Below, piece after piece: positions 8,142 through 54,077 of a DNA stretch of 64,000 nucleotides. Where the stretch lies: positions 21,251,975-21,315,974 of the forward strand of contig CM054183.1 of assembly GCA_028829895.1 (NCBI GenBank). Direction: 5' to 3'. Position numbers and translations under genes: made by a program. Numbering within the stretch: position 1 is the stretch's first letter; each line of letters begins with the position of its first letter. The notes beneath the pieces were generated by a model that did no database searches, was not told where the DNA came from, and saw only the letters and a list, made by a program, of their open reading frames with translations. This stretch comes from Sinotaia quadrata (taxonomy: Eukaryota; Mollusca; Gastropoda; Architaenioglossa; Viviparidae).

Positions 8142-9271
8142 TTATAGCTGTGTTTTATTTCTGCTTATAGTTTTAGCTGGGTTTTGCCGAAAGCAAAATG
8201 ATAATCCATTCTTAATACATTTACAGCTTCTTGTACCCTTCATGTACATTTCATCAGGCTTGTAGGTTACTCCATTGTACACGCAGCCCTTGGGCTCCTG
8301 TGTGGGCAGGGTGGTTTGGGCGTTGCCAAACATCGTTCCTCCACCTGACAGCAAAATATTACTTTTCAAATTACATGTATTTTCAAATCAAAAAGGTTTA
8401 TAAAATCACTTCACCATTTAAAGCTATTGTAATACACTGTGTGTTCAATCAGAAGTTTTGAAAACCACTTACCTTTGAAAGCTAGTTGTAATACATCGTG
8501 TGTTCAATCAGAAGTTTTTAAAACCACTTACCATTGAAAGCTAGTGTAATACATTGTGTGAATCTGTGTTTATATATTGTCATGGTTGGGTTTATAAACG
8601 GATGGGCGTCGACAATATCGGTTAAAGAATATTACCCACATGTAAACTCCTCGAAACAAAGAAGGTCAAGGGTTATGCCTAATTTGTACTGTCACTGATT
8701 GCAATTCTAGATTTAAATAAGCTAATTGAGTTTGATTTTAATTTTAATTTTTCATCTATAAGCAAGAAATAGTTCAGATAATATACGTCCACGTAAGTGA
8801 TTTTCCCAGTCACGTATGACAACAAATAACGTCCACGTAAGTGATTTTGCCCAGTCAGGCATGACAACAAATAACGTCCACGTAAGTCATTTTGCCCAGT
8901 CAGGTATGACAGCAAACAACGTCCACGTAAGTGATTTTGCCCAGTCAGGTATGACAGCAAATAACGTTGACTTATTCACTGAAAAGTATTGGATATTTTC
9001 TGTGAACTCAATGCTCATTCTCTACTTCATTTAGATCAGAAAGATGTTCTTGAATTTGCCATGTACGCAATGTTAGTAATGTGTGTTCTTGAGATTACAC
9101 CCATGCACTAAAGACATCGCGTGATGTGCGTCATTAACGTGATGAACGCCTCATTCACAAAACAGAATTCATTCCTGATTTCGCTGTTACATAAAAAAAT
9201 CAAGACTTACCTGTAAATGACACCAGTACGAGGATAGCCATCAGGCAGGCAGCAAATCGTATAGAAGACAT
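8142..9271 (-). CDS. Secreted 4-Cys VWC-like peptide, copy 2 (two exons)
   Basis: Exon 1 is 9211-9271 and exon 2 is 8142-8344, with an 866-bp intron (GTAAG donor; TTTTGCTGTCAG acceptor; phase 1), giving 87 residues. The signal peptide differs from copy 1 at two residues (Ser3, Ile13). Cys41, Cys61, Cys63 and Cys71 and the YNGVTYKP motif are kept, with D for G after KP. Compared with copy 1, a 1-nt insertion just after the last Cys codon shifts the frame, so the tail changes from RKTQPKL to a basic 16-residue tail (RQNPAKTISRNKTQL after the aromatic residue) that stops 24 nt later. Either tail could be ancestral. Its promoter has the same TATATA box as copy 1 (about 9328-9338). Confidence 0.85.
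8413..8575. repeat. Intronic 56-60-bp tandem repeat, 3 copies (unit 2)
   Basis: Homologue of the 350-490 array, with about three copies inside the intron of peptide copy 2. Confidence 0.8.
8786..8966. repeat. Intronic 45-bp tandem repeat, 4 copies (unit 2)
   Basis: Copies of CGTCCACGTAAGTGATTTTG begin at 8786, 8830, 8875 and 8920; homologue of the 721-905 array. Confidence 0.85.
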
Positions 9272-10257: not shown

Positions 10258-11032
10258 GATTGATCTAAGATGCTCGTATGCTAAACACTTAACATTGTTT
10301 CTCGTGGATCTGTTCATAAAACTATTATGCTGTATTTATTATGCTACATGAATGTGTCCTGCTAATAAATACTGTTGCAGGAAAACTGTAAGTTGAAACT
10401 TGAACGTAAGAAAGGAATATAAAGAATTTAACTTGAATAAATTGGAAACTTTGCATTTATTCCCTGATTATATATTTACAGGGAAATGCACCATTTCCTT
10501 GTATGATTTGAATCTCTAGATTTACTCATTACAAATGGCTATTACCGTGGTAGATGCGTAAAATTACTTCTATAGTGTGTAAGTGTAAAGAATACACTAC
10601 ACTCTATTGATATATGCTAGCAAAGTATGCTGACTACATCGAGCAGGTTCTGGAACAAGGAAATTACTGGAAATTGCTATAATTGTTTTCTGCTTGAGGG
10701 AGCTAAATATGGCAAAGGATGCTCCTAGGTTAGCCTTGGGAGAATAGCAGAAATAGCAGTGAATCACATGACATTGACTGTAATAACTGAACAATACTTG
10801 TGACTTTTTTACAAAATGTTTGCAAAAGGCTATTGATACAGTGCTTAAATCAGGTTTTGTACAAACTATTATTGCTTATGTATAATAACTCCATTTCTTT
10901 TCTCTGATAACTTGTATGGAATTGTCAGGTTGTATATTTTAATATAAAACTGTATAAAATAAAAATTATTCGAATGTGGTTTCATGTCATCGATGTCGAA
11001 TAATCTTTTTCAAATTATTTGTTATATGTAAT

Positions 11033-12224
11033 TGTCAGGTGAAAGCAAACCTTAGCCCGGCATCACTCCATTAACCATTTAAAAATTAAAATAATTAAAA
11101 TAATAAAATCTAGATACACAAGGTGTATAGGAAACTTAGTACAGGATACACATTCAAAGCATTTAACCAAGCCACTCCAAGACACTAGAGGGATATTAGA
11201 ATTACAAGACTGACCACCCAGGGCTAGAGTACAGGAAACAGATGGGGATCAAAGAGTCACTTGTAGCTAAGATAGGGGGAATGGTTAGTCTCAAAGAAAT
11301 AATGGTAAAATGGAAAATCTTTATATAGTCGGTCTTAGCTAATTCTCTCCACTTGCTCACAACAATCCATGGTTTTTAGAATGCGCAGGAGCAGTCCCAG
11401 AGATTTTGTCTGGTAATTTTGAAGTCAGAAAGACTTGTAAACTTTTAAAATCAGAAAGACTGAGTACAGGATATCTAAAGGAAGGATATAGTACTCCAAC
11501 CAGATGACCTTGGTTCTTGGGCTTTGAGGAGCATGAAAGAACCAACAATAACTAGAACCAGAACCGGGTCAGATACGGGTTGTTTAGTTTAAGTGAAACG
11601 AAAGAGGCAAGGGCCAGCTACTGGTCAAACTGAAAGGCACCACACAGAGGGAGATTTGGACGCTGAGCCAGCAGCATTGACTTTATGGCGTTGAGCTAAG
11701 TATAGCAAGCCTTGACCTTGACAAAGAGTACACATGTATATACACGTGTATTGTGGTTGAAAATTGAGACTGAAATTCGAGTAGGAAAAGAAGAGAAGCT
11801 AGTAGGAAGGAACGGACATTGAAAAATCATTTCGTTAGGGGAGGCTAGTAATTCCCTGATTCAATTAGGACCTATCTATCTATTGTAATTTGGGGTTGGG
11901 TAATCAATAACTGCTAATATTGCTAATTGTTCTTCTCTTATTGTTTTTTTCATTTTACTTTCTTTAAATGTTATATAAAGTTTATTGTTAAATTTTCATT
12001 AGTGTTGTGTCAAATTCAATTTCATTCTTGTCTAAATTGGTTTTATAAGTGTCTTCGTCATGTCCGTCTAACATCTGTCTTGAATCTGTCTTTGTCTTAT
12101 CTGTCTGTCTCTCTGTCTTATCTGTGAGGAATCGTTTCCTCTGGGGGCTCAATACGAGTTACCGGAAGTGACGTCCTCAATTGTTGTCCCGTCCTAGATA
12201 CATGTATTTAAGGGGGTACCAACA
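11033..12224 (+). repeat. 5' LTR of the old element
   Basis: Begins TGTCAGGTGAAAGCAAACCT and ends GGGGGTACCAACA. Near its end is a TCTG-rich run followed by GTGAGGAATCGTTTCCTCTG, a small hairpin-like stretch. It pairs with the copy at 17576-18759. Confidence 0.92.
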
Positions 12225-12242
12225 TGGTGTGGGCTCCTCCGG
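12225..12242 (+). other. Candidate primer binding site
   Basis: TGGTGTGGGCTCCTCCGG starts directly after the 5' LTR. The leading TGG is what pairing to a tRNA CCA end requires. I cannot name the tRNA. Confidence 0.5.
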
Positions 12243-13039
12243 AATGAATGCTAGAAGGGAGTAGACGAAATTTATAACGGGACCTAAATGTTATTGTCAG
12301 AAAGTCTGAAGAGGGGTTGATAAATTTGTGCAGAATAATTTGTTATTACCTAGAAGAGCCAAAAGAATAGAAACACGCTTTTATGCACTCCTTGTCAATG
12401 CCTATTTAATATTTTCATTTGAAATATTTTGATATGTTTTCATGAATTGCTATTTTGATATTTTCACGACTTTTATTTCCATGACTTGCTATTTTGATAT
12501 GCTTTTCATGTCTGGCTATTTTCTATAACTTTTCTTTGAAATGTGCATGCATAGTTAAGATAACGAATGCATTATTTTATTTGCTTACAAATAGCTGAGC
12601 ATGGGATTTTCTGTGATCGATGTGATGCACTAAAAGTATTTCTGTGGTTATATACTAAAGGAAGATTATATAAATTTTAGGGGCGTTCTATGAAGGAAAT
12701 AGAATTGATGTTCACACTGCTTGAAGATAAGAGTGTAGCATAGCCCATTGTAAACGTAAGCGCTATATTTAACAAGGGGTTAAATTATAGGCACGTTTGG
12801 AAAGTACTGCTTGTGGAAAAGGGTATTATTGAATTTTGTACGCTACTAGTGGGTGGAGTGTATTATTACGTCACATCGATACAGAGAAACTGATACTTGG
12901 AAAAAGTGAAAACATTTTTCTAATTTTACATTTGTGAGTGAGAGTGCTTTATTGGATTTGTTTTGTTTGGTATAGTTTGGTATATATTGTAACAGTGACA
13001 CATACCTTTCATTTCCAGAAATTAAAACCCTTTTGTAAA

Positions 13040-13585
13040 ATGTCCACATTAGAAGACGAAAAATTCCTCATTGGGTTAAGGAGGGAATTGCGTAGCCTGT
13101 TCGAAAAATGGGTTACAATGGCCGAAATCGAAAGAAGTTATGAAGGGCTTAGGGAACTATGTATCAGGGAGAAAGTGATGGAGAGTTATAGACCAGAACT
13201 AGTCACATTCTTGGCTGAAAGAGAACATAAAAACCTAGATGATATCGCAACGTGCGCCGACCGCTATGACAACGCGCACAGTAAAACGGGAAACTCCGCA
13301 AGACACCGCACGGAAATTAGCAAGATTACACCAAGTCCAAGTGAAGGTAGAAATACATTTCAGAGTAACAGTTTCAGTGAAAGAAGAGATTTCAGAGAAG
13401 AAGATAGGTTACGAACCCAAACTAAACCACAGATTGACAGAGACCGACAGGCGCAGACCAAGGTGTGTTATCTGTGTAATAAATCGGGACACCTAGCACC
13501 CGAGTGTAACAGACCCGCCCTGAACCGTATTTGCGGAATGGAAAGCAGTAAAAAACACAGACGACTTACCGGCCAACACAACTAG
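13040..13585 (+). pseudogene. gag remnant: capsid C-terminal part plus CCHC knuckle
   Basis: The open frame runs from 12938; the natural start may be the ATG at 13040 (MSTLEDEKFL). Residues downstream show the C-terminal capsid pattern of Ty3/gypsy gag proteins, a Leu-rich helix (RELCIREKVMESYRPELVTF) followed by a C(A)DRYDNAH motif like the usual ADxYxxAH. A CCHC zinc knuckle follows (CYLCNKSGHLAPEC, at about 13465-13506). The N-terminal gag region is missing or degraded in 12243-12937, where I see no coding signal. The frame ends at 13585 and the protease continues in another frame, so an indel or programmed shift separates them. Confidence 0.75.
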
Positions 13586-13765
13586 TGGATTCGTAGAAGA
13601 CAAAGAAATAACGTTTCTGCTAGACACTGGATGCAGTTTTCCAGTACTTTTAGACGCTGACTTCGTGGACAAAAAGAACTACACAGGAGAGACAGTGTCA
13701 GTGACGTATGCTAATGGCACAAATGACATTTTACCCCTAGCTAGAGTCCGCATCGAGACACATTA
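13586..13765 (+). pseudogene. Retropepsin-like aspartic protease remnant
   Basis: In the +1 frame relative to gag, the sequence reads FLLDTGCSFPVLLDADF with the catalytic D-T-G at 13623-13631, followed by a Y-A-N-G-T flap-like segment, and stops at TAG 13765. Similar-looking protein (LEVAVLTNSIYQGVLG) continues in the open frame at 13767-13979, which suggests a point stop in an older longer protease. The D-T-G is intact but the protein is broken by a frame change and a stop. Confidence 0.75.
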
Positions 13766-14202
13766 GGTGACAGGTGCATTAGAAGTAGCAGTTCTGACGA
13801 ATTCTATTTACCAAGGTGTTCTAGGATGTCGTTATGCTCTACCCACACCTAACCCAGAGACGTGTAATCAAACACCCCCTTCCATACACATAGTAGAGAC
13901 TAGGGCAAGCAGTGGAAAACAGAATGACAAAGCGCTGACGGATGACTCAAGACCGATAGCTAATACAACGCTAGAATAATTTAGACCGCTACAACGAACA
14001 GACAATACGCCGCAACAGTTACATAAACTTACAGCAGGCGAGCACGTGAGTGATGGCAGTAAGAAAGATATTTTGTGCAGAGAGACAAAGAAAGTTGAGA
14101 AAGGTAGTTTGATGACACAGGTAGAGACGGCTACTTTTAAACCCAGTGACCCTGTGACAGTTAAAAACACTGACAGCCATCCCATAAACTACAAAGAAAG
14201 TA

Positions 14203-14538
14203 GTGAATCTAAAACAGAAGGGATCATGCGTGTGGTTAAAGAGAAGTTTAGCGACAGTAGCTTTAATGACAAAACAAAGGTTAGAAAAGATGTTAAGACC
14301 CCGCCCATTGTACAAGTCCCAAAGGGGTAAAAACAGATTTCAAAATAGAGCGTGTTTTAATTGTAATGAGCCAGGCCATTTAGGACGTGATTGCACCCGT
14401 AGTGTACCAAGTGTACCCGGCGTATCAGGCGTCGAGCGCGCGGCGATAGAGACATTGGTAACAGATGTGGAAGTTGACCTTATCCTTGTAGCTAATTTGG
14501 GGGTGGGTGAGCCCCAGAGTGTAGAGGGAGGGGAGTAG
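14203..14538 (+). pseudogene. Second CCHC zinc-knuckle fragment
   Basis: The frame contains a second, complete knuckle (CFNCNEPGHLGRDC, about 14350-14391) preceded by a basic run (KSQRGKNRFQNR). A knuckle downstream of the protease is out of the normal gag-PR order, so this may come from a duplicated or recombined gag tail. The flanking Ser/Thr- and acid-rich frames (13767-13979, 14046-14330) have no family I recognise. Confidence 0.6.
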
Positions 14539-14994
14539 CTCGAAAGAAAGGGCCCCTCTCTTATCTGACAGCGTGTGTGCACTGGAGTGTGTACAGACAG
14601 CAGGTGTTGTGAACGGAAGGACAAACACATGTGAGGTTGCTAGCTGTGTATTGTCTACGTGTAACGCACTTAAAGGACTTAGTGGCGTGGACAGTGAGTG
14701 TAAGGGCAGACATGTACCCAGTTAAAGCAACAAAGGCTGAGAACTGCGTATTGTCTGTATGTACACCGCTTAACGGACCTAGCGGTAGGGATGATACTTT
14801 GGCTACTTGTATTAACAAGGCGGTTGATATAGAAGTAGGTCACGAGGAAGTTTTGGATGGAAGGACGCGCGCTAGGTAAGCGCGAAGAAAGGAATGCTTT
14901 ATTAAGTGAAGAGAGAAGTGTTCCTCCCTCTTAAGTAGTAGGGCAGGGTATTTCAGTAACCCCTGATACATGTTCGACAGAGATAGATGATGAT

Positions 14995-15341
14995 GATCTT
15001 TTCCAGATAAGCCCCGCCACTAATGCAAAAAGTGCTCGCGTGAAAAGTTAAGCCCCGCCACTTTTTGCCAGCTCCAATTTAATACACGCACGCAACCTTG
15101 ACCTATTTCTGATGTCTAGACATTTCAATATTTAAACGCACGCCATAAAAACAACTCCTTATCCGCCTCTAACACTAAACCTAACCGTAACCCCTAACCG
15201 TAACCCTAAACCCTAACCCTAACACTAACCCTAACCTTTTCAATAAAAACTAAAAGTACAAGTTTTATATCCTCTTTTTTATAATCTTTTTTTTGGGGGT
15301 GGCGGGGGTTAACTTTTTGGCGGGCTTATCTGGAAAAGATC
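14995..15341. mobile_element. MITE of about 347 bp with telomere-like core
   Basis: The ends are inverted repeats: GATCTTTTCCAGATAAGCCC at the left and its complement GGGCTTATCTGGAAAAGATC at the right, with matching subterminal AAAAGTTAA(G)CCCCGCCAC motifs. Flanking GATGAT on both sides may be a target duplication but is itself a simple repeat. No coding capacity. The core at about 15170-15240 carries degenerate CCTAAC/CCCTAA repeats. It is nested in the old LTR element, so it is younger than that insertion or travelled with it. Confidence 0.8.
15170..15238. repeat. Interstitial telomere-like CCCTAA repeats
   Basis: About eleven degenerate units (ACCCTAAACCCTAACCCTAA and variants ACTAAACC, ACCGTAAC) inside the MITE. 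They match the TTAGGG telomere type common to most animals. Confidence 0.85.
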
Positions 15342-15393
15342 CGATGATGAAACCAGATCAATAAGTAGCGAAAGTGAAGATGACTGTTCTACT

Positions 15394-15780
15394 TTGTTCA
15401 GCATGACAGAGGATAAGTCAGAAGTGACAAGAGAAGTTGCCACTGACAGTTATGCAAATGACAGTGACAATGGTTATGTAGAGCGGCAGAATAGAGATGA
15501 CCCTTTTGAGTTGTGTAAGACTGACTCAGAACGTGACAGTAAAGAAAAGTGTGTAGAGCACCACAGTAAGGTGGACGTCTTGACCTTACAAGGTGAAACG
15601 GAAGGAGGTGAAGTTGTGATTTTACCCTGTGATATAGGAAAATGTGACAAGCACTGCGAGCTAGTAGTGACTGAAACTCCTAGGAAAATCCATGACAGAT
15701 CAGAACAGAGAGGCCAGAATGAGTTTTCATTAGACTGTATGGACATTAAAACAGAGTTGCGCATTGACAGGGACAGATAA
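15394..15780 (+). pseudogene. Acidic Ser/Thr/Asp-rich ORF of the old LTR element
   Basis: 128 codons, rich in D, E, S and T, with no family I recognise. In composition it resembles the middle of the 1097-residue protein at 46155-49448. It follows the MITE and overlaps the next frame by a few bases. Confidence 0.4.
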
Positions 15781-16306
15781 TAAATTAACTCAGATGAAGG
15801 GGAGGACAGCAGCAGACAAGTTAGACGAAAGTAGTTACACAGAGAATAGAGGAATTATACTTATAGAAAGACAAACTGATCCCTATGACAGGATAAAACT
15901 CAAACCCGTACCGTTATGGGACACACACTTGATAGGTGTGACTTTTAATCCTGGCATCATAGATTTGATAGGGCCGTTAACACTTGCACACATGAATGGG
16001 CATCCTCATATTTTGTCCATCGTGGAATTTGAATCGCGATACCCCGAAGCTATCATGGACACAGTGACCGTTACTGAGAGGTCAGCAGGGACACGCGTGG
16101 GAATTCCCCATACCGAGGTAGACGGCGAAAGAGTAAGACTAAAATTCGAAACTGACACAGGGGGGAAAGCGAAGAACACAAACACAGCACATTTTAAGTC
16201 AGTAGGGCCGAGTATTGACAGTGTTGCTAGGTTCAAAGACAAGCCGACAGGAGAAAATGTCGTAGCGACAGATGCGTGGCAGGTCCGTAATTTTAAAGGC
16301 GTTTGA
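15764..16306 (+). pseudogene. Integrase catalytic-core remnant
   Basis: Around 15953-16065 the frame reads GIIDLIGPLTLA, then HPHILSIVEFESRYPEAI. This aligns by eye with the retroviral/Ty3 integrase core (DxxGPL followed by the VDYFSRYPEA type). The first catalytic Asp is present, but the second position is Glu in place of Asp, and the third acid is not evident. No HHCC domain is seen upstream. It is a dead remnant, in keeping with the missing RT. The following short frames (16272-16583, 16584-16955) are open and element-internal but unrecognised. Confidence 0.6.
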
Positions 16307-16955
16307 GATGATAGAAAAGGAGGGTGATGAAATTCCGAGTCAAGGCGATCCCAATGTTGCACAAAATAAGTTAGAGAGGCTAGAATCTGTTTGTTACTCT
16401 AAAAGAGAAGTTATAGATGTCGTTTCGATCTCTTTAACCCCAGAAAGCAACCGCGAAAAGGTAGAAAGGGTAACAGTGAAGTTAAAATTGGAACACATGT
16501 ACATATGTCAGAATGACGCAAAATTCGACAAGAGAAAGTTTTATTTTAAAGGCCTAACGGATACAGTTAAGGAAAGAAAGTAAATGGGGTTGCTATGCAG
16601 AAATGATGCGGGTGACCGAAGGATATGGGTGGACTTAAACACTCAAGATTACTTTGATGATAGATGTACCACTTTAAGTAATGGTTCGTCAAACTGCGGG
16701 TACACTGAGATAGAAAGGTGGGGTGATGCACGCGAACGCTCACTCAAAATGATAAGACAGTCTAGGCTTGAAGATGCCAATCAAACTGTAGATTCCACAG
16801 TTAGGAATGACAAAGAGAGACCGCACAATGAGCGCTTACCTCTGTATAAAGTCACAGTGCGGAATTGTTCTGCAAACTTACCAGAGAATTATGAGGCAAT
16901 ACGGGATTGCCAATTATTTGGGGTAGGAAAACACAGAGATGACTTTGCGTTATGA
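16272..16955 (+). pseudogene. Unrecognised ORFs at the 3' end of the old element
   Basis: Two adjacent frames of 103 and 123 codons, separated only by a stop (TAA at 16581-16583, then ATG). They are rich in charged residues and resemble no family I know. The end of the second (about 16955) marks the last coding-like sequence; 16956-17550 looks like a 3' untranslated region. Confidence 0.4.
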
Positions 16956-17547
16956 ACGGGGACAAAATTGTCGCCAAAACAGTTTAAAAAAAATTCTTTT
17001 GTAGTAGTAGCTAACTTTACCTTGATTTTGATTTGTTGAATTCTATTTGTGTTGTATTGGAGAGAGATTTCTCTATATGGAGATTCATTGTACATATTAT
17101 TTTGATAATCTTTTGGATGATGTAGAATTTATGTCTTATTGAAAGGAAACTCTGTATTATGTAGAGGCTTATGATAAACTGACAAGTAGTAACCTTGTCA
17201 GTTGATTTTGATAACTCTTTGATATTGTAATATTGATTGTGGAAAGGAGGGCGTAGCGAAGTATGCCCTGGGTTATTAAGATGTTGTTGTTGGGCATTAA
17301 ATGGTTAACGTGATTGCGTAATGCACCCTTAAAATTGTTGAAGTAATTATGTAATAAATTTTAAGGATATTCTTTTAGTAAATGAGTAAGAGTCGCGTAT
17401 TGATATTTCATAGATATCAGAGAATGGAGCATCCATAGGTAGATTGTCACAACAGTAAATAATCCCAAAATATTGGAAATGTTAATCTCGTGATCGTTCT
17501 AAGTTTTATGGATTGACATCAATTACTTTCACTAATAGATGGTCAAC

Positions 17548-17575
17548 AAAAAAAAAAAAAGGGGGGGGGGGGTGT
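17548..17575 (+). other. Polypurine tract before the 3' LTR
   Basis: A run of about 13 A followed by about 12 G and TGT, ending at the TG of the 3' LTR. It fixes the element's orientation as plus. Confidence 0.8.
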
Positions 17576-18759
17576 TGTCAGGCGAAAGCAAAACTTAGCC
17601 AGCATCACTTCATTAACCATTTAAAAATTAAAATAATTAAAATAATAAAATCTAGATACACAAGGTGTATAGGAAATGTAGTACAGGATACACATTCAAA
17701 GCATTTAACCAAGCCACTCCAAGACACTAGCAGGATATTAGAATTACAAGACTGACCACCCAGGGCGAGAGTACAGGAAACAGTTGGGGATCAAAGAGTC
17801 ACTTGTAGCTAACGATAGGGCGAATGGTAAGTCTCAAAGAAATAATGGTAAAATGGAAAATCTTTATATAGTCGGTCTTAGCTAATTCTCTCCACTTGCT
17901 CACAACAATCCGCGGTTTTTAGAATGCGCAGGAGCAGTCCCAGAGATTTTGTCTGGTAATTTTGAAGTCAGAAAAGACTTGTAAACTTTGTCAGAAAGAC
18001 TGAGTACAGGATATCTAAAGGAAGGATATAGTACTCCAACCAGATGACCTTGGTTCTTGGGCTTTGAGGAGCATGAAAGAACCAACAATAACTAGAACCA
18101 GAACCGGGTCAGATAGCAGACGATGCATTCTGCTGGTTGTTTATGCAAAACGAAAGAGGCAAGGGCCAGCTACTGGTCAATCTGAAAGGTACCACACAGA
18201 GGGAGATTTATGCCTTGGATGCTGAGCCAGCGGCATTGACTTTATGGCTTTGAGCTAAGTATAGCAAGCCTTGACCTTGACACTGAGTGCACATGTAGAT
18301 ACACATGATACTGAAATTCGAGTAGGAAAAGAAGATAAGCTAGTAGGAAGGAGCGGACATTGAAAAATGACTTCCTTAGGGGAGGCTAGTAATTCCCTGA
18401 TTCAGTTAGGACCTATCTATTGTAATTTGGGGTTGGGTAATCAATAACCGCTAATATTGTTAATTGTTCTTCTCTTATTGTTTTTTTTTTCATTTTACTT
18501 TCTTTAAATGTTATATAAATTGTTAAATTTTCATTAGTGTTGTGTCAAATTCATTGTCATTCTTGTCTAATATGGTTTTATAAGTGTTGTCGTCACGTCC
18601 GTCTAACGTCTGTCTTGAATCTGTCTTTGTCTTATCTGTCTGTCTGTCTGTCTTATCTGTGAGGAATCGTTTCCTCTGGGGGCTCAATACGAGTTACCGG
18701 AAGTGACGTCCTCAATTGTGGTCCCGTCCTAGATACATATATTTAGGGGGGTACCAACA
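17576..18759 (+). repeat. 3' LTR of the old element
   Basis: Begins TGTCAGGCGAAAGCAAAACT and ends GGTACCAACA. It differs from the 5' LTR by substitutions and several indels, for example an insertion around 18117-18140. Unit 2 array sequence resumes at 18760. Confidence 0.92.
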
Positions 18760-43787: not shown

Positions 43788-43792
43788 CCCAC
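43788..43792. other. Target site duplication, left (CCCAC)
   Basis: Matches 51868-51872 exactly. Five bases is usual for Ty3/gypsy-type integrases. Confidence 0.93.
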
Positions 43793-45494
43793 TGTAACAG
43801 ATTCAGACAAAATTCTGTGTCCTGAACTCTTGCCCCAGTTCTGCAAGTTTCAAATTTAAAACTTCAAATATAGTTCCTTTGTTAGGACATTTTCCCACAC
43901 ACACCTGTGTTGAAACAACGGAGAGACTCATGTGTTATTGTAACCCTTAGGTCAATAGGCAGAGGGAGACTCATCCCATGTTATTGTTATTTTTGGGACC
44001 ATAGCCGACCGTACATCGAACCCATAACGTCACGACTAGTCACGTGACGAATTCATGCATCTTCATAAATAACTGACACGCGCAAAATACTTTACTTACA
44101 CGAGGGACAACGGCCGATTGAACTTACAAGCTTCGTGCCTCCGATAATTCCGTGTAAGTCGATACGAAAAGTATAATAGAAGACCCGCTGTCTTTGTTTG
44201 AAGCTATCTACTGAGAAGGTAAACACATCGATTTCTTAAATTAATACTTACATTTTATTTAGGTTATCATTGTGTGAATGTGCGAAATTGGTAATGTAGA
44301 AATTATATCCTTACTGCAACCTTCTCTAGACACGTGGCTTGGTAACAGTACGACTAGGCTAGAACCATTACATCCTTTACACATTAATTGTCTAATTGTG
44401 AGATAATGGGTTATAATGCTAAATTGATGGAATTGTAATCACAGAACGTTGATGCACGTTCATAGGATTTCTTTTATGTAAAGATCCTTTTGATGTAAAC
44501 AATGTATAATCGCGTCTATGCTTGTAACGCGTATGTGCGTGATTTTAATTCATATTTACTTTCATTGTAAAATCTAAATGTTCTTTGAACGATTAAATTC
44601 TCTTGTATGTGTAAACGTCACATTTTAATTGTAACACGCATGAGCGTGATGCTGATTGTATTTTCGTTATTAGATTCAAACTATTGAATGTGAAGATACA
44701 GAACGGTCATTTGTAAAACAAGCTACGCTATTATCAAAGCCACTTGTGTAGATTGCGAATCAGTAGGAACTGTCGCTCATGAGAATTATTGTATTTTCAG
44801 AGCGGGTCTGAGTTTGTATCGTTGGGTTTGAGATTTCATAATCTCTGCGTCCTGAGACCTCTAGAGGAGTCCGGGGCTGGTCCGTTTAAGTTCTGCTGAA
44901 CTTGATGTGAGGATCGGGCACTGATGTTATGGATCGTCGCTGAAGCCACAACTCATACTAGTTGGGTGCGAGTGTTGCCATAGCTGATGATAGAGTGTCG
45001 TCATAGCAGTGGGAAGTTGCAAGTTGAGTAATGACAATAAACTGGAATCACTAATCAGTAATTGACATTGAAACTATTCGCAGAGCTGATAATACGTAGT
45101 CTTGTTAGACCGAGCATATGATTCAATTTTTGTTATTTGTAAATCTTTTATTAAATCTTATATTTGTTGATCAATTACGTAGTCGACTAAATCATTTGCG
45201 AGAAAGACCAAATTAGGGCTGGGTGGGGGCGAGCATCAAGAGCGTGACGAATGCAAGTATGATTAGTTGTAATTGATTAATGTGTCCCAGTCCGTGCAAT
45301 TGTCACACAGGTTTATCTGTCTCTAAATTTTGTGTCTTACTACGAGATTAAATTTAGTCAGACTGAAGGATAGATCTGGGCAGTCAGTCTGTTTCAGAAT
45401 AAATGAGGAGATTCAATTAATCTAATCCTGGAATTTAATTAATCTAAATCTTAATTCTGGAGCAGGGTCTCTAAATAAATACTGACATGTAACA
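43793..45494 (+). repeat. 5' LTR of the young element
   Basis: 1702 bp, TG...CA ends. A TATA-like CATAAATAAC lies at about 44064-44073, 15 bp after the palindromic CGTCAC...GTGACG at 44029-44049. AATAAA candidates occur at about 45046 and 45397. The U3/R/U5 borders cannot be fixed from sequence alone. Confidence 0.96.
44029..44049. promoter_or_regulatory. Palindromic CRE/E-box-like site in the LTR
   Basis: CGTCACGACTAGTCACGTGACG holds two inverted CGTCAC arms, a CACGTG E-box and TGACG half-sites just upstream of a TATA-like sequence. The same site is in the 3' LTR. Candidate transcription control site. Confidence 0.4.
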
Positions 45495-45497
45495 AAG

Positions 45498-45516
45498 TGG
45501 GTACTCGTCGCGGGAT
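45498..45516 (+). other. Candidate primer binding site
   Basis: TGGGTACTCGTCGCGGGAT starts 3 bp after the 5' LTR. Its complement ATCCCGCGACGAGTACCCA looks like the T-arm and acceptor end of a tRNA closing in CCA. I cannot assign the tRNA. Confidence 0.6.
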
Positions 45517-46154
45517 ATGATAGAATAAATCGGAAAAATTTGTACCAAGGGAAATAATTGTTCTCCTAGACAAACTTAGAAGCGAATTGCAAAAAGAAAT
45601 TTACTGATTCCATGTTATATTGTTCCTTTTTTCTTGTTTCTTCATTTTGCATTTTTGCATTGATTTTTGTACTTGTATTATTCTATTGCAGGGAATAATG
45701 TACATTTTGATTGTTGACATGTTGTAATACATTTTTAGTTGTAGCTAGATGTATGCATGTTAACTGTGGATCAATGATTTTATTTAGTAGCGTGTTAACT
45801 AAGTAGATCATTGTTTTAAGAGGTCGATGTGTTGCACCACCGGACTAAGGTAGTTAACTGGTAGCAATAGGCTTCGGACTATTATATTTAGGGTGCTAAA
45901 TATAATGTGTAATGTTGTATGGTAGGAGCCGTGACATTACGAAAGCCTTGGAACAGCGGAAACTGTGACAAGCAGGTGAAACGTGTGATACTAACGCGTA
46001 ATTTATTTCGGAAGGTGTTCTGAATAAATTCAATAATTTTTGTAAGGTCGTAGCCTAAAAGTTATTGTGGGATAAAAGCGGAGTTTTATCGCCTACGGTT
46101 AGATACACAATCACGAGAGATATTTATTGTAGCCAGACGCGCTAAATAAATAAG
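45517..46154 (+). other. Leader of the young element, no gene
   Basis: About 640 bp between the primer site and the ORF start. AT-rich, with no long frame; probably 5' untranslated and packaging sequence. Confidence 0.6.
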
Positions 46155-49100
46155 ATGGACCTCGAACAGATTATTGAGAATCTGAGAGAGGAAGGTTCCT
46201 TGATCGGATACCGAACCGAAGAAGAGTTGACGAACTACGTGAGAACTGAACTAGACAAGAAAGCAGAGAGAGAGAGAGAAGTAGTTCGAACTGAACTAGA
46301 CAAGAAAGCAGAGAGAGAGAGAGAAAGAGAGAGAGAGAAAGAAGAAGAGGAAAGAGAGGAACGCGAATTCGAGGCGGAACACGTGAAAAGGTTAGAACGA
46401 ATAAAACTCGATGGCGCATTAGAAATGAAACGGATTGAGTCACGGCAGGCCGAGGCTAGAGAAAAGCTAGAGCGCGTTAAGGCCGAGATGGAAAGGTTAG
46501 AGATAGAAGATGATCACCTTATGACTTTGGAAAATCTAAGGATTAAAGATCAGAAGAACAGTGTAGGGAGAGTACAGCTCAGGGAGATTCTAAAACACGA
46601 ACAGGAAATAGGCATATCACTAGGCTACAGAAGTGAACAGCTACGTAATTTCGTCCTGCTAGAACTCAATGAAAAGGAAATAAAACACAGGGAAGAAATT
46701 AGATCTTCATTAAACTCACGCGTAAACCTTACGAAGGCGCGAGTAAAACAGTTGTTTGATAGAGATTTCCGATTCGAAGGGGACTGGATGGAAATGAGAG
46801 GAAGCGAAGTTCTAATAATAGAAAGTGAAGTTGAAATGCGAGACCTAACGTTCGAAATTAGAAAGTTAAAGAAAGAGAAGCTAAGGCTTATCGAGAGGAA
46901 AGAAAGTCTAGAATTAGAATGGTTGTGGACAGAAATCGAAACAGAGTCTAAATTTGCTGGGGAAGGTGACGGTACTGTTGACAAATTACGACAGGAAAGT
47001 CAGGCCGTGAACTTTGACTTGCCGAGGTCAAACGCCGCGAGCGTGGAGACTGACACACAGAAATTAGTCACACTACCGAACACAGCAGACAAAAAAGACC
47101 AAAACAAATGTTTTGACGAAACCATTACAGTTCAACTTGCTAACCAGTTTACAGAAACAGTTGGCGCACCACCAAAGCTTGATCTTGAAACAGAGACAAG
47201 AAAAGACACTGTTGTTAAGGACTTAATAACACGTGTAGAATTTGGACGAACACATACACCGCCGTGTACGTGTGACACCTTGTTTGACGGACTGAATGCG
47301 CATGATAAGATAGAGACAGATTCTATCAGTTGTGTACCGTTAAGGTGTGATGAAACTTCTAGCAACACAGTGACTGATTTTTCTGACAGGACAAATACGC
47401 ATGAGAAGATAGAAACGGGTTCTATCAGTTGTGTATCGTTGAAGGGCAGTGACACATCGACTGAGTCTACTGACCGAACTGTTAGTTTAAGAGAGAGTCA
47501 TGAGAATGTGCTCGCTAGGAAGACTGAGACTGACATCGGTAGATCTCGATCTCCGGTGATTGACGTGAGTCATGACGTAATTTTGGAACACAAGATTATT
47601 GCGTTGGTTCCGAGTGCTAACACATTGATAGCCAGGGAAACAGAAGTATTTGATCCAGATGACAGCATAGGTAGCAATACAGACAGAGACAATGTGCCTA
47701 TGATAAATTCATTTACTTCAGATGACATGACAGTTGTCAGAGCTGAGACAGAGTTCTTTTCCAAACGTGACATGGAAGAAGATAAAGTCAAAGACTGTAC
47801 AGGGACGGAATCTAGTTTTCTTGGTGTAAGAGTGCTAGAGACGGTCGATGACGATGCTGGTATACTGGTGGGTATGCATGATGCTGTTGTCGGAGACAAG
47901 GCAGAACTGTCTGCAGATAAATCACTTAACGGAATTAGTGACGTAGACAGAAGCCACGGTACATGGACTACCTTTATCGACTCACCTGTCGAGATAAAGG
48001 AATGTCATGAGTACGTACCAAAACCAGAGAGAGAGGAGGTGAGTCGTGTGACAGAATACACGAGGGTGACAAGTGGAAGTAAGGAGGAGGGGGTTTCATT
48101 AACTGATATGTTCCTTGATTCACTAATGATAAGTGCGGAGTGTAATCCTGAGTTGATCGAAGACACAGTACAAATGAGTGACGGAACTAGATCGATAGGC
48201 AATGAAAACCGGAGTGACGGACTGATAACCAGAGCAGGTGGGACATCAGGGCTGTTACTGACATCAGATGCAGAAATTTATGATAGAGGAAACAGTGGGA
48301 GTGTAGCCTACAACACACGTAGAGTAGACATAGCGATGTTATTCATTGTGACAGGTAACATTCACTTCCAGTTAGTGATTGAAACTGACAGAATTTCCAT
48401 CATAGATTCTGACGATTTGATGAGAAGACATATTGAATTAACTAAGTCAGTGGAGACAGATTATGTTAGTTCAATAAACAGTATGGTCCAGGGAAGACAA
48501 TCGATAACTCTTGGAGAGTTTAAGACAGAACCCTTGTTCATACAACCGCAGGAATCCGACTTGCTAGCGAGTGAGTCTGACCACCCAGTGACTAGAGAGT
48601 ACTCGAGTGGAGAGTTAGACAATTCTAGAGTCACAAGAGAGACACAGACTTATGTTGTCAAGGAGAGAGACAAGCTGACAGACGTAATGACAGTCGAACA
48701 CCTAGTTGTGAATGGGTTAAGACAGAAGGCAACTAGTGCGGTGAGGTATTTCAACTCAGTCTATGATAAGATCAGGAGAACAGAACCTCCAGATTTAGAG
48801 GGGAAGCTAATGTTGCAATTGAGGTACTTCAGAGGGACTGGTAGCCACAACAGGGCACATTTGCGAACCTATGACGTTAGACTAGATGCGAAATGGACCC
48901 ATAGTAGATCTGACGCCATTCCGACAAAAGACGTTGAGTGCATGCGAACTAGAGATGTTCAACATGTAGAAGATGACGTAACTACAAATGCACGAAACAC
49001 CAAGAGAGCAAATCTACATTTGCAGGAGTTCAGTGTCAAGGCTAAAAGCGATAAGTTGGAAATTCCGACATGGCATAGTCAATGCCACAGTGACACTGAC

Positions 49101-49448
49101 AGGATAGGGAACGTATCGAGAAGTTTGAAACTGTTAGAAGGGGTAGAGACCAGTCATACAGGAACTGACACTACCAGAAACATTTTAAACTTGACAAGTA
49201 CTTTGGAGAGTTTTGAAAGAGATCATGAAGATAAAACACTTCAAGGACGTACTTACTGGACAAGAAATGAAAAGTCTAAACTTGACATGCAATATATTGC
49301 ACCTCACAGTAACGTTCTGACGAACAGAGTAAGAAAGAAAGAGTACAGTTGTCGTACCGTAGACATGTTGACACACATGGACGATGACGTGTATTGGGTT
49401 TGGGATAGAACTACGAAGATTGTGCTAGGCAGGATAGCGCAACAGTAG
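46155..49448 (+). CDS. 1097-residue gag-like coiled-coil protein of the young element
   Basis: One uninterrupted ORF starting MDLEQIIENLREEG. Residues about 1-140 are a highly charged coiled coil with a duplicated VRTELDKKAEREREV stretch, like the N-terminus of many Ty3/gypsy gag proteins in molluscs and arthropods. A module IGYRTEEELTNYV (17-29) recurs as LGYRSEQLRNFV (156-167), followed by more helix to about 265. Residues about 270-700 are acidic, rich in S, T, D and E, and probably disordered, with a 33-residue repeat (HDKIETDSISCV at 383, HEKIETGSISCV at 416). Near 735-755, FQLVIETDRISIIDSDDL resembles a retropepsin active-site strand with D-T-G replaced by E-T-D. The C-terminal part (about 760-1097) is basic to mixed and unrecognised. 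I see no capsid ADxYxxAH motif, CCHC box, RT or integrase. The intact frame suggests the protein matters to the element. Confidence 0.9.
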   Translation: MDLEQIIENLREEGSLIGYRTEEELTNYVRTELDKKAEREREVVRTELDKKAEREREREREKEEEEREEREFEAEHVKRLERIKLDGALEMKRIESRQAEAREKLERVKAEMERLEIEDDHLMTLENLRIKDQKNSVGRVQLREILKHEQEIGISLGYRSEQLRNFVLLELNEKEIKHREEIRSSLNSRVNLTKARVKQLFDRDFRFEGDWMEMRGSEVLIIESEVEMRDLTFEIRKLKKEKLRLIERKESLELEWLWTEIETESKFAGEGDGTVDKLRQESQAVNFDLPRSNAASVETDTQKLVTLPNTADKKDQNKCFDETITVQLANQFTETVGAPPKLDLETETRKDTVVKDLITRVEFGRTHTPPCTCDTLFDGLNAHDKIETDSISCVPLRCDETSSNTVTDFSDRTNTHEKIETGSISCVSLKGSDTSTESTDRTVSLRESHENVLARKTETDIGRSRSPVIDVSHDVILEHKIIALVPSANTLIARETEVFDPDDSIGSNTDRDNVPMINSFTSDDMTVVRAETEFFSKRDMEEDKVKDCTGTESSFLGVRVLETVDDDAGILVGMHDAVVGDKAELSADKSLNGISDVDRSHGTWTTFIDSPVEIKECHEYVPKPEREEVSRVTEYTRVTSGSKEEGVSLTDMFLDSLMISAECNPELIEDTVQMSDGTRSIGNENRSDGLITRAGGTSGLLLTSDAEIYDRGNSGSVAYNTRRVDIAMLFIVTGNIHFQLVIETDRISIIDSDDLMRRHIELTKSVETDYVSSINSMVQGRQSITLGEFKTEPLFIQPQESDLLASESDHPVTREYSSGELDNSRVTRETQTYVVKERDKLTDVMTVEHLVVNGLRQKATSAVRYFNSVYDKIRRTEPPDLEGKLMLQLRYFRGTGSHNRAHLRTYDVRLDAKWTHSRSDAIPTKDVECMRTRDVQHVEDDVTTNARNTKRANLHLQEFSVKAKSDKLEIPTWHSQCHSDTDRIGNVSRSLKLLEGVETSHTGTDTTRNILNLTSTLESFERDHEDKTLQGRTYWTRNEKSKLDMQYIAPHSNVLTNRVRKKEYSCRTVDMLTHMDDDVYWVWDRTTKIVLGRIAQQ

Positions 49449-50155
49449 AAATGATGATTGACACTTCTTTTGAATTTTCATTATTTTCTTGTTGTACCGT
49501 AGTTGGTAGTTGTTACTGTAAATATGTTGGACATTTCATAAAAACTTTGTTGACAAGCTATGACACTGATTGAATTGTGTTAGTGTTATAACTCTGAATA
49601 TGACAGGGAGACTGTTAGATAGTTCATTTGAGTTGGTAATTCATAAACTCTGATATTTGGTTGATACAGGAAATCAATATCTGGAACTTTTCATAACCTG
49701 CATATTGATAGTGTTGTTCATTTGGAAGTCAATTTTTTTTTTATCACACTATTGTTGGATACGTATTCAGTGGAATTGGTTGATGTTGGATTTCTATTCT
49801 GAATAATCTGGTTAGATCAAACTAGGTTGTGTGTGAACTATTGATTATTGGGACAGATAGTGAAATTTTCAGAACATGTTATTCCATTGGATGGATGTCT
49901 ATTAAATTAGACTGAACGTTTTTCTTAAATCATTTTATTTGATTTTTTCTTAAATCATTTTTCTTGATTTCTTGAGGAGAGAAATATTGTATGAGTGTGC
50001 CGTTAATCGAGAGTTGATTTTTCCGTCACGTTACTTTATTTCTAGGAATGTTGAAATTTTTTAATCGTAAAATTTTCTTCATTTTTTCGACTTCTACATT
50101 TTATGACACATAATTTGTAGGAGGCATTTATCATATGGTATGATAAACGCCTAAA
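49449..50155 (+). other. 3' untranslated part of the young element
   Basis: About 700 bp, T-rich, with no frame of note. The old element has a similarly T-rich tail at 16956-17540. Confidence 0.6.
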
Positions 50156-50166
50156 AAGCAGAGGGG
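50153..50166 (+). other. Polypurine tract before the 3' LTR
   Basis: AAAAAGCAGAGGGG ends exactly at the TG of the 3' LTR, the expected plus-strand primer. Confidence 0.88.
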
Positions 50167-51867
50167 TGTAACAGATTCAGACAAAATTCTGTGTCCTGAA
50201 CTCTTGCCCCAGTTCTGCAAGTTTCAAATTTAAAACTTCAAATATAGTTCCTTTGTTAGGACATTTTCCCACACACACCTGTGTTGAAACAACGGAGAGA
50301 CTCATGTGTTATTGTAACCCTTAGGTCAATAGGCAGAGGGAGACTCATCCCATGTTATTGTTATTTTTGGGACCATAGCCGACCGTACATCGAACCCATA
50401 ACGTCACGACTAGTCACGTGACGAATTCATGCATCTTCATAAATAACTGACACGCGCAAAATACTTTACTTACACGAGGGACAACGGCCGATTGAACTTA
50501 CAAGCTTCGTGCCTCCGATAATTCCGTGTAAGTCGATACGAAAAGTATAATAGAAGACCCGCTGTCTTTGTTTGAAGCTATCTACTGAGAAGGTAAACAC
50601 ATCGATTTCTTAAATTAATACTTACATTTTATTTAGGTTATCATTGTGTGAATGTGCGAAATTGGTAATGTAGAAATTATATCCTTACTGCAACCTTCTC
50701 TAGACACGTGGCTTGGTAACAGTACGACTAGGCTAGAACCATTACATCCTTTACACATTAATTGTCTAATTGTGAGATAATGGGTTATAATGCTAAATTG
50801 ATGGAATTGTAATCACAGAACGTTGATGCACGTTCATAGGATTTCTTTTATGTAAAGATCCTTTTGATGTAAACAATGTATAATCGCGTCTATGCTTGTA
50901 ACGCGTATGTGCGTGATTTTAATTCATATTTACTTTCATTGTAAAATCTAAATGTTCTTTGAACGATTAAATTCTCTTGTATGTGTAAACGTCACATTTT
51001 AATTGTAACACGCATGAGCGTGATGCTGATTGTATTTTCGTTATTAGATTCAAACTATTGAATGTGAAGATACAGAACGGTCATTTGTAAAACAAGCTAC
51101 GCTATTATCAAAGCCACTTGTGTAGATTGCGAATCAGTAGGAACTGTCGCTCATGAGAATTATTGTATTTTCAGAGCGGGTCTGAGTTTGTATCGTTGGG
51201 TTTGAGATTTCATAATCTCTGCGTCCTGAGACCTCTAGAGGAGTCCGGGGCTGGTCCGTTTAAGTTCTGCTGAACTTGATGTGAGGATCGGGCACTGATG
51301 TTATGGATCGTCGCTGAAGCCACAACTCATACTAGTTGGGTGCGAGTGTTGCCATAGCTGATGATAGAGTGTCGTCATAGCAGTGGGAAGTTGCAAGTTG
51401 AGTAATGACAATAAACTGGAATCACTAATCAGTAATTGACATTGAAACTATTCGCAGAGCTGATAATACGTAGTCTTGTTAGACCGAGCATATGATTCAA
51501 TTTTTGTTATTTGTAAATCTTTTATTAAATCTTATATTTGTTGATCAATTACGTAGTCGACTAAATCATTTGCGAGAAAGACCAAATTAGGGCTGGGTGG
51601 GGGCGAGCATCAAGAGCGTGACGAATGCAAGTATGATTAGTTGTAATTGATTAATGTGTCCCAGTCCGTGCAATTGTCACACAGGTTTATCTGTCTCTAA
51701 ATTTTGTGTCTTACTACGAGATTAAATTTAGTCAGACTGAAGGATAGATCTGGGCAGTCAGTCTGTTTCAGAATAAATGAGGAGATTCAATTAATCTAAT
51801 CCTGGAATTTAATTAATCTAAATCTTAATTCTGGAGCAGGGTCTCTAAATAAAACTGACATGTAACA
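50167..51867 (+). repeat. 3' LTR of the young element
   Basis: 1701 bp, differing from the 5' LTR by one indel near 51850 as far as I can see by reading. Confidence 0.96.
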
Positions 51868-53141
51868 CCCACAATCCTCTCTTACAGGCATTACTACTTT
51901 TGGTCCGCATTCAGCAGCTGAAGGGGAGATAAGCCAGACCGGAGATTGTATAACCGAGGGAGTTAGAAAACTGGATGCTAAGTTTAATCAGAATGTCAGA
52001 AGTTAGAATACTACAATTTGAAATCACTACTTTTACCAAAAAAATGATTTAAAGTAATAAGTTTGAACTAATATCACTATTTACATTATTATTATTAAAG
52101 TTTAACATATTATTCTGGGATCAGATATATTTATCATTAGGAATTTAATAAAATCGTGAGAAGAAGGACCAACACTCAACAATCAATGACGTCATGACCA
52201 ATAACACTTTCTTTACTTTTCAATTAGTCTCTCAGTCGTGCTGAAAGAAGAGGAAGAATAATCTGGTTTCATGCCTGAGATCTGCCTGGTGAAGTAAATC
52301 GCTCTTTTCTTCCACTGCTTCCCCCCCCCCCCCCAATAAAAAAAGTGGATTTGTGACATTGCCCAGAACTTACGTAGAGCAGGGATGAATGGGTGCTTAT
52401 AACTGTTGTTGTCAAGAGGATTATTTTTCTGTTGTTAACGAAACACTTTCAGTTTTAATTCCCATCTTTTGAAATTAATAAACACTCTCAAACTTCCAAG
52501 AGATTACTTTATTTCCACGGAACCCATTCTTTCTACATACGACTCACAAGGATACATGATCAAATTCTCAGATTTTATTATAAATAATTCCGGGGAAGTA
52601 ATATCAGTCAATGATTAGACTCATTAGCTCCCGTCTTAGTTTCAGTTTACTAACACTCACGCGTGCTCACATTTTAGAGAGAGAGATTCGTCCATACTGA
52701 ATGCGCTACTTCGCACATGCATCATCTCCATAGATCGTGCCGTACATGGGGAGACAATCCGTGCAATAGCATGCCACCTTGGTTAGCATGGATCTGACTC
52801 GTCAAAAACATTATGTCAATCTGACCAGCACACCATTACCAGATCAGGCTCTCTCCTTGTTTCTGATAGCAATTCAAAACGCATTGCAACTCCTCATGTG
52901 AGTGTATTTCCTGCTCGATAAGCACGACACCACCAACCCACTACTCCACCCCTGACTCCCTCCCTGCAATACTGAAATGTGTTGGCAGAAAATGTCTGGT
53001 TACTACAGTGCCACTAATATGGAATGTTGTCGGCAAGGAAACAAGGGGCTCTTACACCAGTGGTTTTGCCGTAAGAACGCAGGACATCGGAGAAGTAAAA
53101 ATCCCATGAACGATTGCAGACTAGGCTACATCCTTCTATGC
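51868..53141. other. Intergenic, no gene seen
   Basis: Begins with the right-hand CCCAC duplication. Contains a run of 14 C at about 52321-52334. The 67-codon frame at 52977-53180 runs into the hAT end and is not convincing. Confidence 0.6.
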
Positions 53142-54077
53142 CAGGCATGTCAAACTCATTCTAGTCACCGGGCCACATAATTAACCAGGTTTAGTTTCAT
53201 TTAATGGTAACTCATATTTCATCACAACTTCCATCAATGCGCCAATATCATCTCCCCTCGTTTTATTGTGTATAGGAATCACCTCCAGTAGTTATTGTGA
53301 GGTTTGCATCACTCCAAAATATCAGCTCATGTCATTCTATAAACTATAGGAATCGTGTCCAACAGTTCTTCACTTACTGTAAGGTTTACATCACACCAAA
53401 ATATCAGCACATGTCATTCTATAAACTATAGGAATCACTTCCAACAGTTCTTCACTTACTGTAAGGTTTGCATCACATCCGCGAATAAAAACAGATAGTT
53501 GGGCCATGTCTCGTATATCAGTGCTCTCATCGATTGTTGACGATAAGCCTCGAATCTGGTATTTTTTATCCATACTTTTAAAAAAATTGTCTGCAATTTC
53601 ATCGATTCTGCTAGCTAGTCTTTCGACTTCAACTTGTACTTTTGAATTTCTTTAACTGCTCGTGGCACAACGCCTCAGCCGTTTAGATCAAACAATCATT
53701 AATAAATTCGACTTCTGTAAGTGGTTTTGATTTGTTTGCAATTAAATGAGATATGACGTCACTAGCTTGAACAGCTGCTGTATTATCCGCAACCGGTTTA
53801 GTAAATGCATTTTGCTGTTTAAAAAAGCACTCATTTTAACTCTTGTCAGCTTTTGTTGACACATCTGTGCAAAATACTGATCATATTTTAATTTGTGAAC
53901 TGTATAAAAGTGTCTCTTAAGATATACTCCTTGCAAACGGTAATGGAGTAACTACATATTAAGCACACAATTTTACCATTTAGCTGTACACAAAAATATT
54001 GCATTTTCCCATTTCTCTTGGAAAATACGATTTCTTTCTTCAATCCATCTCTTTCTATTTACACTAGCTTTTGACAT
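53142..54077 (-). pseudogene. hAT-family transposase remnant (GTF2IRD2/ZBED-like)
   Basis: Read on the minus strand from ATG at 54077 (MSKASVNRKRWIEERNR). The next part encodes a BED-like zinc finger (NGKIVCLICS-type pair of Cys, then LKRHFYTVHKLKYDQ with two His), broken by stops and a frame change near 53940-53980. Further on come SHLIANKSKPLTEVEFINDC and LSSTIDESTDIRDMAQLSVF with the acidic DES of the hAT catalytic core, then SEELLEVIP. At least two stops and two frameshifts separate these, and most of the C-terminal half including the hAT dimerisation region is missing. The right boundary at 53142 reads CAGGCATGTCAAACTCATTC then ACCGGGCCACAT, the typical hAT terminal sequence. It is not functional. 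Confidence 0.82.
53265..53480. repeat. About 80-bp tandem repeat within the hAT remnant, 3 copies
   Basis: Units with AAACTATAGGAATC, TTCTTCACTTACTGTAAGGTT and CCAAAATATCAGC; the last copy is the transposase sequence itself, so part of the pseudogene has been tandemly duplicated. Confidence 0.85.

Follow-up and report, generated by a model that had tools for sequence, protein, structure and literature searches.

A structurally intact LTR element of 8,075 bp was found at positions 43793-51867 of the window, a term that designates here the whole 64-kb stretch of DNA that was analysed. Self-comparison and alignment delimited a 5' LTR of 1702 bp (43793-45494, + strand) and a 3' LTR of 1701 bp (50167-51867, +), which differed by one 1-bp indel and displayed no substitution in 1701 aligned sites. 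The sequence TGTAACA was found at the start and at the end of the LTRs (TG...CA ends), and inspection of the flanks uncovered a perfect target site duplication of five bp, CCCAC, at 43788-43792 on the left and at 51868-51872 on the right (no strand assigned). A duplication of this length does not by itself decide between Ty3/Gypsy, Copia, BEL and ERV lineages. The interior (4,672 bp) was composed of a leader of 660 bp (45495-46154, +), a single ORF on the + strand that occupied ~70 % of it, a 3' non-coding part (49449-50152, +) and a polypurine tract, AAAAAGCAGAGGGG (50153-50166, +), directly adjoining the 3' LTR. A primer-binding-site-like stretch starting with TGG (45498-45516, +) followed the 5' LTR after a 3-nt spacer; it matched a tRNA-Pro end at 12 out of 18 nt only. 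No tRNA gene was encountered within the 64-kb window. The element combined the generic attributes of LTR retrotransposons, namely a near-identical LTR pair, TG...CA ends, a target duplication and a polypurine tract. An earlier, sequence-only reading of this DNA had described LTRs identical but for one base, a perfect 5-bp target duplication, a primer site and a polypurine tract in place; these were confirmed here, the primer site as a TGG-starting stretch after a short spacer.

Zero substitutions in 1701 sites placed the 95 % upper bound of the insertion age at ~0.09 million years if a rate of 1e-8 per site and year is assumed, and at ~0.44 million years if the rate is 2e-9. Differences between LTRs could also be erased by gene conversion from one to the other; the intact target duplication fits a young insertion. 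Recent movement, already proposed in the earlier reading, agreed with both the near-identical LTRs and the perfect duplication.

When the focal LTR was compared with the window, the only matches besides the LTR pair itself were two short stretches (E 0.091 and 0.32). The ORF, compared without filters, gave nothing but charged low-complexity stretches, the best of them (E 3e-5) in AGAA-type arrays at 61.1-62.0 kb, and weak matches with E of at least 0.5. Neither a second copy of the LTR or ORF nor a helper was seen within the 64 kb. The Rfam scan of the window returned nothing reaching a gathering score; a SNORD47 match at 45572-45639 (24.7 bits where 50 were needed, E 0.11) was taken as chance, and LTRs bearing tRNA and 5S sequences, as outlined in PMC10886601, were ruled out as a fit for the focal element, no Rfam match being obtained. 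Beyond the element, an 86-residue open stretch on the - strand (53394-53651) resembled by eye hAT-derived GTF2IRD2-like proteins and had no Pfam match.

The single ORF (46155-49448, +) encodes 1097 residues, ends at its own stop and is intact, as had been read earlier. The open stretch that contains it measured 1100 codons from stop to stop, compared with a longest of 267 when the interior was simulated 300 times with a first-order Markov model. Base usage by codon position was non-random in each quarter of the ORF (chi-square p 1e-10 to 2e-3) and at chance in the leader, the 3' part and the LTR (p 0.40 to 0.72). Three of the four quarters also exceeded all 300 shuffles in a period-3 measure, the last one displaying the weakest coding signal (period-3 power 2.73 vs a maximum of 2.76 among 300 shuffles). 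The other two forward frames of the same region were interrupted by 113 and 115 stops. On account of its length beyond chance, its codon-position bias and the stops in the other frames, the ORF looks like an evolved coding sequence, although its maintenance by selection cannot be demonstrated from a single young copy. Seven open stretches of 79-144 residues lay opposite the ORF on the - strand; in Pfam none of them passed the cut-off, and ExoD (E 0.029) was the one row below it.

Two parts could be distinguished in the protein. The N-terminal 285 residues (46155-47009, +) are highly charged and predicted to be helical, and contain a unit of ~33 residues twice, starting at residue 3 and again at about residue 142, with 13 out of 33 columns identical. 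None of 5000 shuffles reached the score of this repeat (72), a figure that is optimistic in that the repeat was spotted by eye before testing; BLASTP self-comparison of the ORF displayed no off-diagonal match for it. Residues 286-1097 (47010-49445, +) are acidic and rich in Ser/Thr and, as judged from composition, modelling and searches, have neither a confident fold nor relatives; at DNA level this part also contains an internal duplication (47272-47345 and 47370-47445, 80.5 %). A single-sequence model of the whole ORF yielded a mean pLDDT of 34.7, with values of at least 70 at roughly residues 20-110 only, and a helix spanning residues 22-114 is the sole part of the protein to be confidently predicted.

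In Pfam and NCBIfam, the ORF matched neither gag, capsid or zinc knuckle nor any of the enzymes RT, RNase H, integrase and protease. The only Pfam rows were SAM_GIDA_C, below cut-off (E 0.23 with the whole ORF, 0.025 with the first 285 residues), and IFNGR1_transm (E 9.1), and neither a CCHC nor a D-T/S-G motif was present. In comparisons with about 5.8 billion proteins, the top word-sharing candidates that were scored numbered 7982 for the whole ORF, 7993 for residues 285-1097 and 7987 for residues 1-290, with no hit at E <= 0.001, E <= 1 and E <= 10, respectively. PDB sequences gave none at E <= 1. Stretches fitting a peptide pattern occurred in viral contigs (two) and in bacterial and archaeal contigs (17), and no relative was among them. 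This absence of relatives is weak evidence, since mobile elements of eukaryotes may be scarce in the protein libraries. The lack of RT and integrase announced by the sequence-only reading was therefore borne out as far as recognisable domains are concerned (Pfam and NCBIfam for the ORF, Pfam for the other open stretches examined), while its description of the protein as gag-like was not confirmed, no capsid, CCHC or protease signal being found in the ORF. The N-terminal unit followed by a charged helix may be reminiscent of how certain Ty3/Gypsy Gags of invertebrates begin; the protein-library search with residues 1-290 was empty.

That the element might be fully autonomous, with enzymes diverged past recognition, was considered in view of residues 713-775 (48291-48479, +), which were modelled as strand-strand-strand-helix and which by eye resemble either a retropepsin in its first lobe or an integrase core at its start. 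The pLDDT there is only around 30, however, and Pfam was empty. A model of fragment 700-880 (mean pLDDT 35.9) returned 679 Foldseek rows at E <= 10, the best at 0.35 and none at E <= 0.001. Alignments to integrase-like and protease-like pieces of an older element of the window (see below) were no better than shuffles, of which 1063 to 1620 out of 3000 reached the score under three gap settings, and 1333 and 1439 out of 3000 in a second test. Together with the missing D-T/S-G and CCHC motifs, this leaves hidden enzymes highly improbable. Comparably remote is the proposal that residues 286-1097 were captured from a host gene or another foreign coding sequence: they are open throughout and display no similarity to retroelement proteins of the libraries, but they resemble no other library protein either, in libraries that may be poor in host proteins.

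The surroundings of the ORF bear on another alternative, according to which an autonomous element gave rise, by deletion or template switching, to a single derivative that moved once and carried the ORF as baggage, not preserved elsewhere. Only one copy is known, and at so young an age the ORF would be intact even without selection. Had gag-pol simply suffered an internal deletion, however, recognisable pieces would be expected to remain, and neither the ORF nor the longest open stretches flanking it contained a recognisable remnant of RT, RNase H or integrase. Open stretches in the three + frames of the leader and the 3' part did not exceed 50 codons; the five longest of them had no Pfam match above cut-off, with a single sub-threshold row (Orf78, E 0.13). 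Moreover, the frame possesses its own stop, which is followed by 718 bp devoid of codon periodicity (49449-50166, thus including the polypurine tract), and periodicity was likewise absent from the leader. Such a derivation is accordingly regarded as unlikely, though less so than the two preceding alternatives; were the element a single deletion product, the find would be ordinary.

A second, older and decayed LTR element of 7,728 bp was encountered at 11032-18759, with LTRs 91.4 % identical. It sits inside a repeat unit, and the uninterrupted site was present in three paralogous copies. Several traces of coding capacity were preserved in its broken frames: a CCHC knuckle just under the Pfam cut-off (E 0.00093) with a weak SCAN-like match (E 0.098) at 12938-13582, an aspartic-protease match just under cut-off at 13524-13763 (E 0.00028), a sub-threshold DUF6589 row at 13980-14327 (E 0.0071) and a CCHC match above cut-off at 14188-14535 (E 2.2e-7). 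A stretch at 15893-16078 looked by eye like the start of an integrase core, for which Pfam and PDB gave no confirmation. None of the 13 distinct stop-to-stop pieces that were scanned matched an RT. The gag piece, compared with viral contigs, gave five stretches fitting its pattern and no relative. A short telomere-like CTAACC array is located within this element (15169-15236). More generally, repeat units of large size recur several times across positions 1-43189, mostly in the same order and with a similarity of about 90-95 %. In some of these units the - strand carries a short open frame rich in Cys, of which that at 111-344 matched DUF7666 (E 0.086) and that at 8145-8387 matched Fn1_2 (E 0.023), both below cut-off.

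Kinship between the two elements was not supported. Their LTRs displayed no similarity, which counts against the older element being kin of the helper. Residues 285-1097 were compared with the older element in three frames and in a frame-tolerant manner, and the best scores were reached by 234 and 231 out of 300 shuffles, respectively. The C-termini fared no better (2536 out of 3000 shuffles reached the score), and when the whole ORF was compared by BLASTP with nine stop-to-stop pieces, the lowest E was 0.14.

The focal element has near-identical LTRs flanked by a target duplication, a polypurine tract, a stretch resembling a primer site and an intact frame, but no recognisable enzyme. From a recent and clean insertion of an element without recognisable enzymes we infer that copying and integration relied on proteins made elsewhere; the dependence on another element that had been proposed earlier is in this sense supported by the anatomy. 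We put at about three in four the probability that the focal element is non-autonomous and was retrotransposed recently by the enzymes of an autonomous LTR element. Speaking against this are the absence of a second copy or helper within the window, where the sole other LTR element recognised is dissimilar, the poor match of the primer site to a tRNA, and the periodicity of the last ORF quarter, which remained below the shuffle maximum. The LTR would drive a full-length transcript, from which the 1097-residue protein would be translated; the autonomous element would provide the capsid to package this transcript, the RT to copy it and the integrase to insert the copy. Helper and focal element would then have packaging, primer and LTR-end signals in common. 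Our leading guess for the protein is a role in or on the helper's particle, exerted through the helical N-terminal region. Since the searches detected neither a capsid or nucleocapsid module nor a protease, it would serve there as a structural or accessory component and not as a full Gag.

A bolder extension of trans-mobilisation, which we hold as tentative and rather doubtful, if less so than the one-off derivation, would see here a satellite-like family. Its sole, non-Gag protein, made of a helical self-duplicated module and a disordered tail of 800 residues, would dock on the helper particle so as to have its own RNA copied, and would be selected across many copies. What a long protein does in a non-autonomous LTR element, whether it contributes to the helper, competes with it or packages its own RNA, is the question raised by elements of this type. 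An element that has moved recently and whose long protein is not recognisably Gag would make it possible to test directly whether such elements can live on a helper-binding protein other than a capsid.

Mobilisation in trans, as proposed here, follows cases documented or proposed elsewhere, namely Arabidopsis TR-GAG, BARE2, Quinta and Sabrina; wheat Sabrina, WHAM and Quinta are close parallels of the focal element. TR-GAG elements of plants, reportedly treated by Chaparro in 2015, share with the focal element the LTRs, a single ORF and the lack of pol. They are characterised in this way in PMC8704663 and PMC10025401. The Arabidopsis TR-GAG transposed in ddm1 plants and encodes a recognisable GAG of 562 residues (PMC8704663), whereas no such domain was detected in the focal ORF with Pfam or NCBIfam. 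RLG_Quinta of wheat likewise has one ORF and no RT or integrase; its ORF combines gag with a domain of unknown function, the GAG homology is called very clear and mobilisation by RLG_Cereba was proposed (PMC11302176), in contrast to the focal ORF with no detectable GAG homology. RLG_Sabrina and RLG_WHAM are Gypsy elements of wheat without RT and integrase, none of which was recognised in the focal element either, and four of the shorter Sabrina variants encode, in place of gag-pro, proteins without homology to other wheat proteins (PMC9744471), comparable in this to the focal protein. These proteins are called short, the variants number several hundred copies each and RLG_Wilma was proposed as partner (PMC9744471), while the focal protein reaches 1097 residues and one copy was seen in the window. 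For the wheat and Arabidopsis cases, in which the protein is Gag or Gag-protease, a contribution of Gag was proposed (PMC8704663, PMC11302176, PMC9744471). BARE2 of barley is also a non-autonomous LTR element; it cannot make Gag, its RNA is packaged in BARE1 particles and its remaining frame may be translatable (PMC3735527). In the focal element it is the enzymes that are missing.

Among animals, no element with the focal layout was found among the titles and abstract openings listed by searches of the CC-licensed part of PubMed Central, and the animal TRIMs listed there are without such an ORF. The earlier statement that no such layout was known in animals was nevertheless overstated. MaLR (THE1) elements of mammals are LTR elements devoid of pol and env, with homology to ERV-L gag (PMC11359688), so that the pol-less class as such is not new in animals. 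A predicted ORF of 464 residues was given for one THE1D copy (PMC11359688); the focal ORF is more than twice as long and has no gag match in Pfam. The focal element is probably a non-autonomous one with an orphan protein, and it is the length and the orphan nature of this protein that are unusual beside the systems compared.
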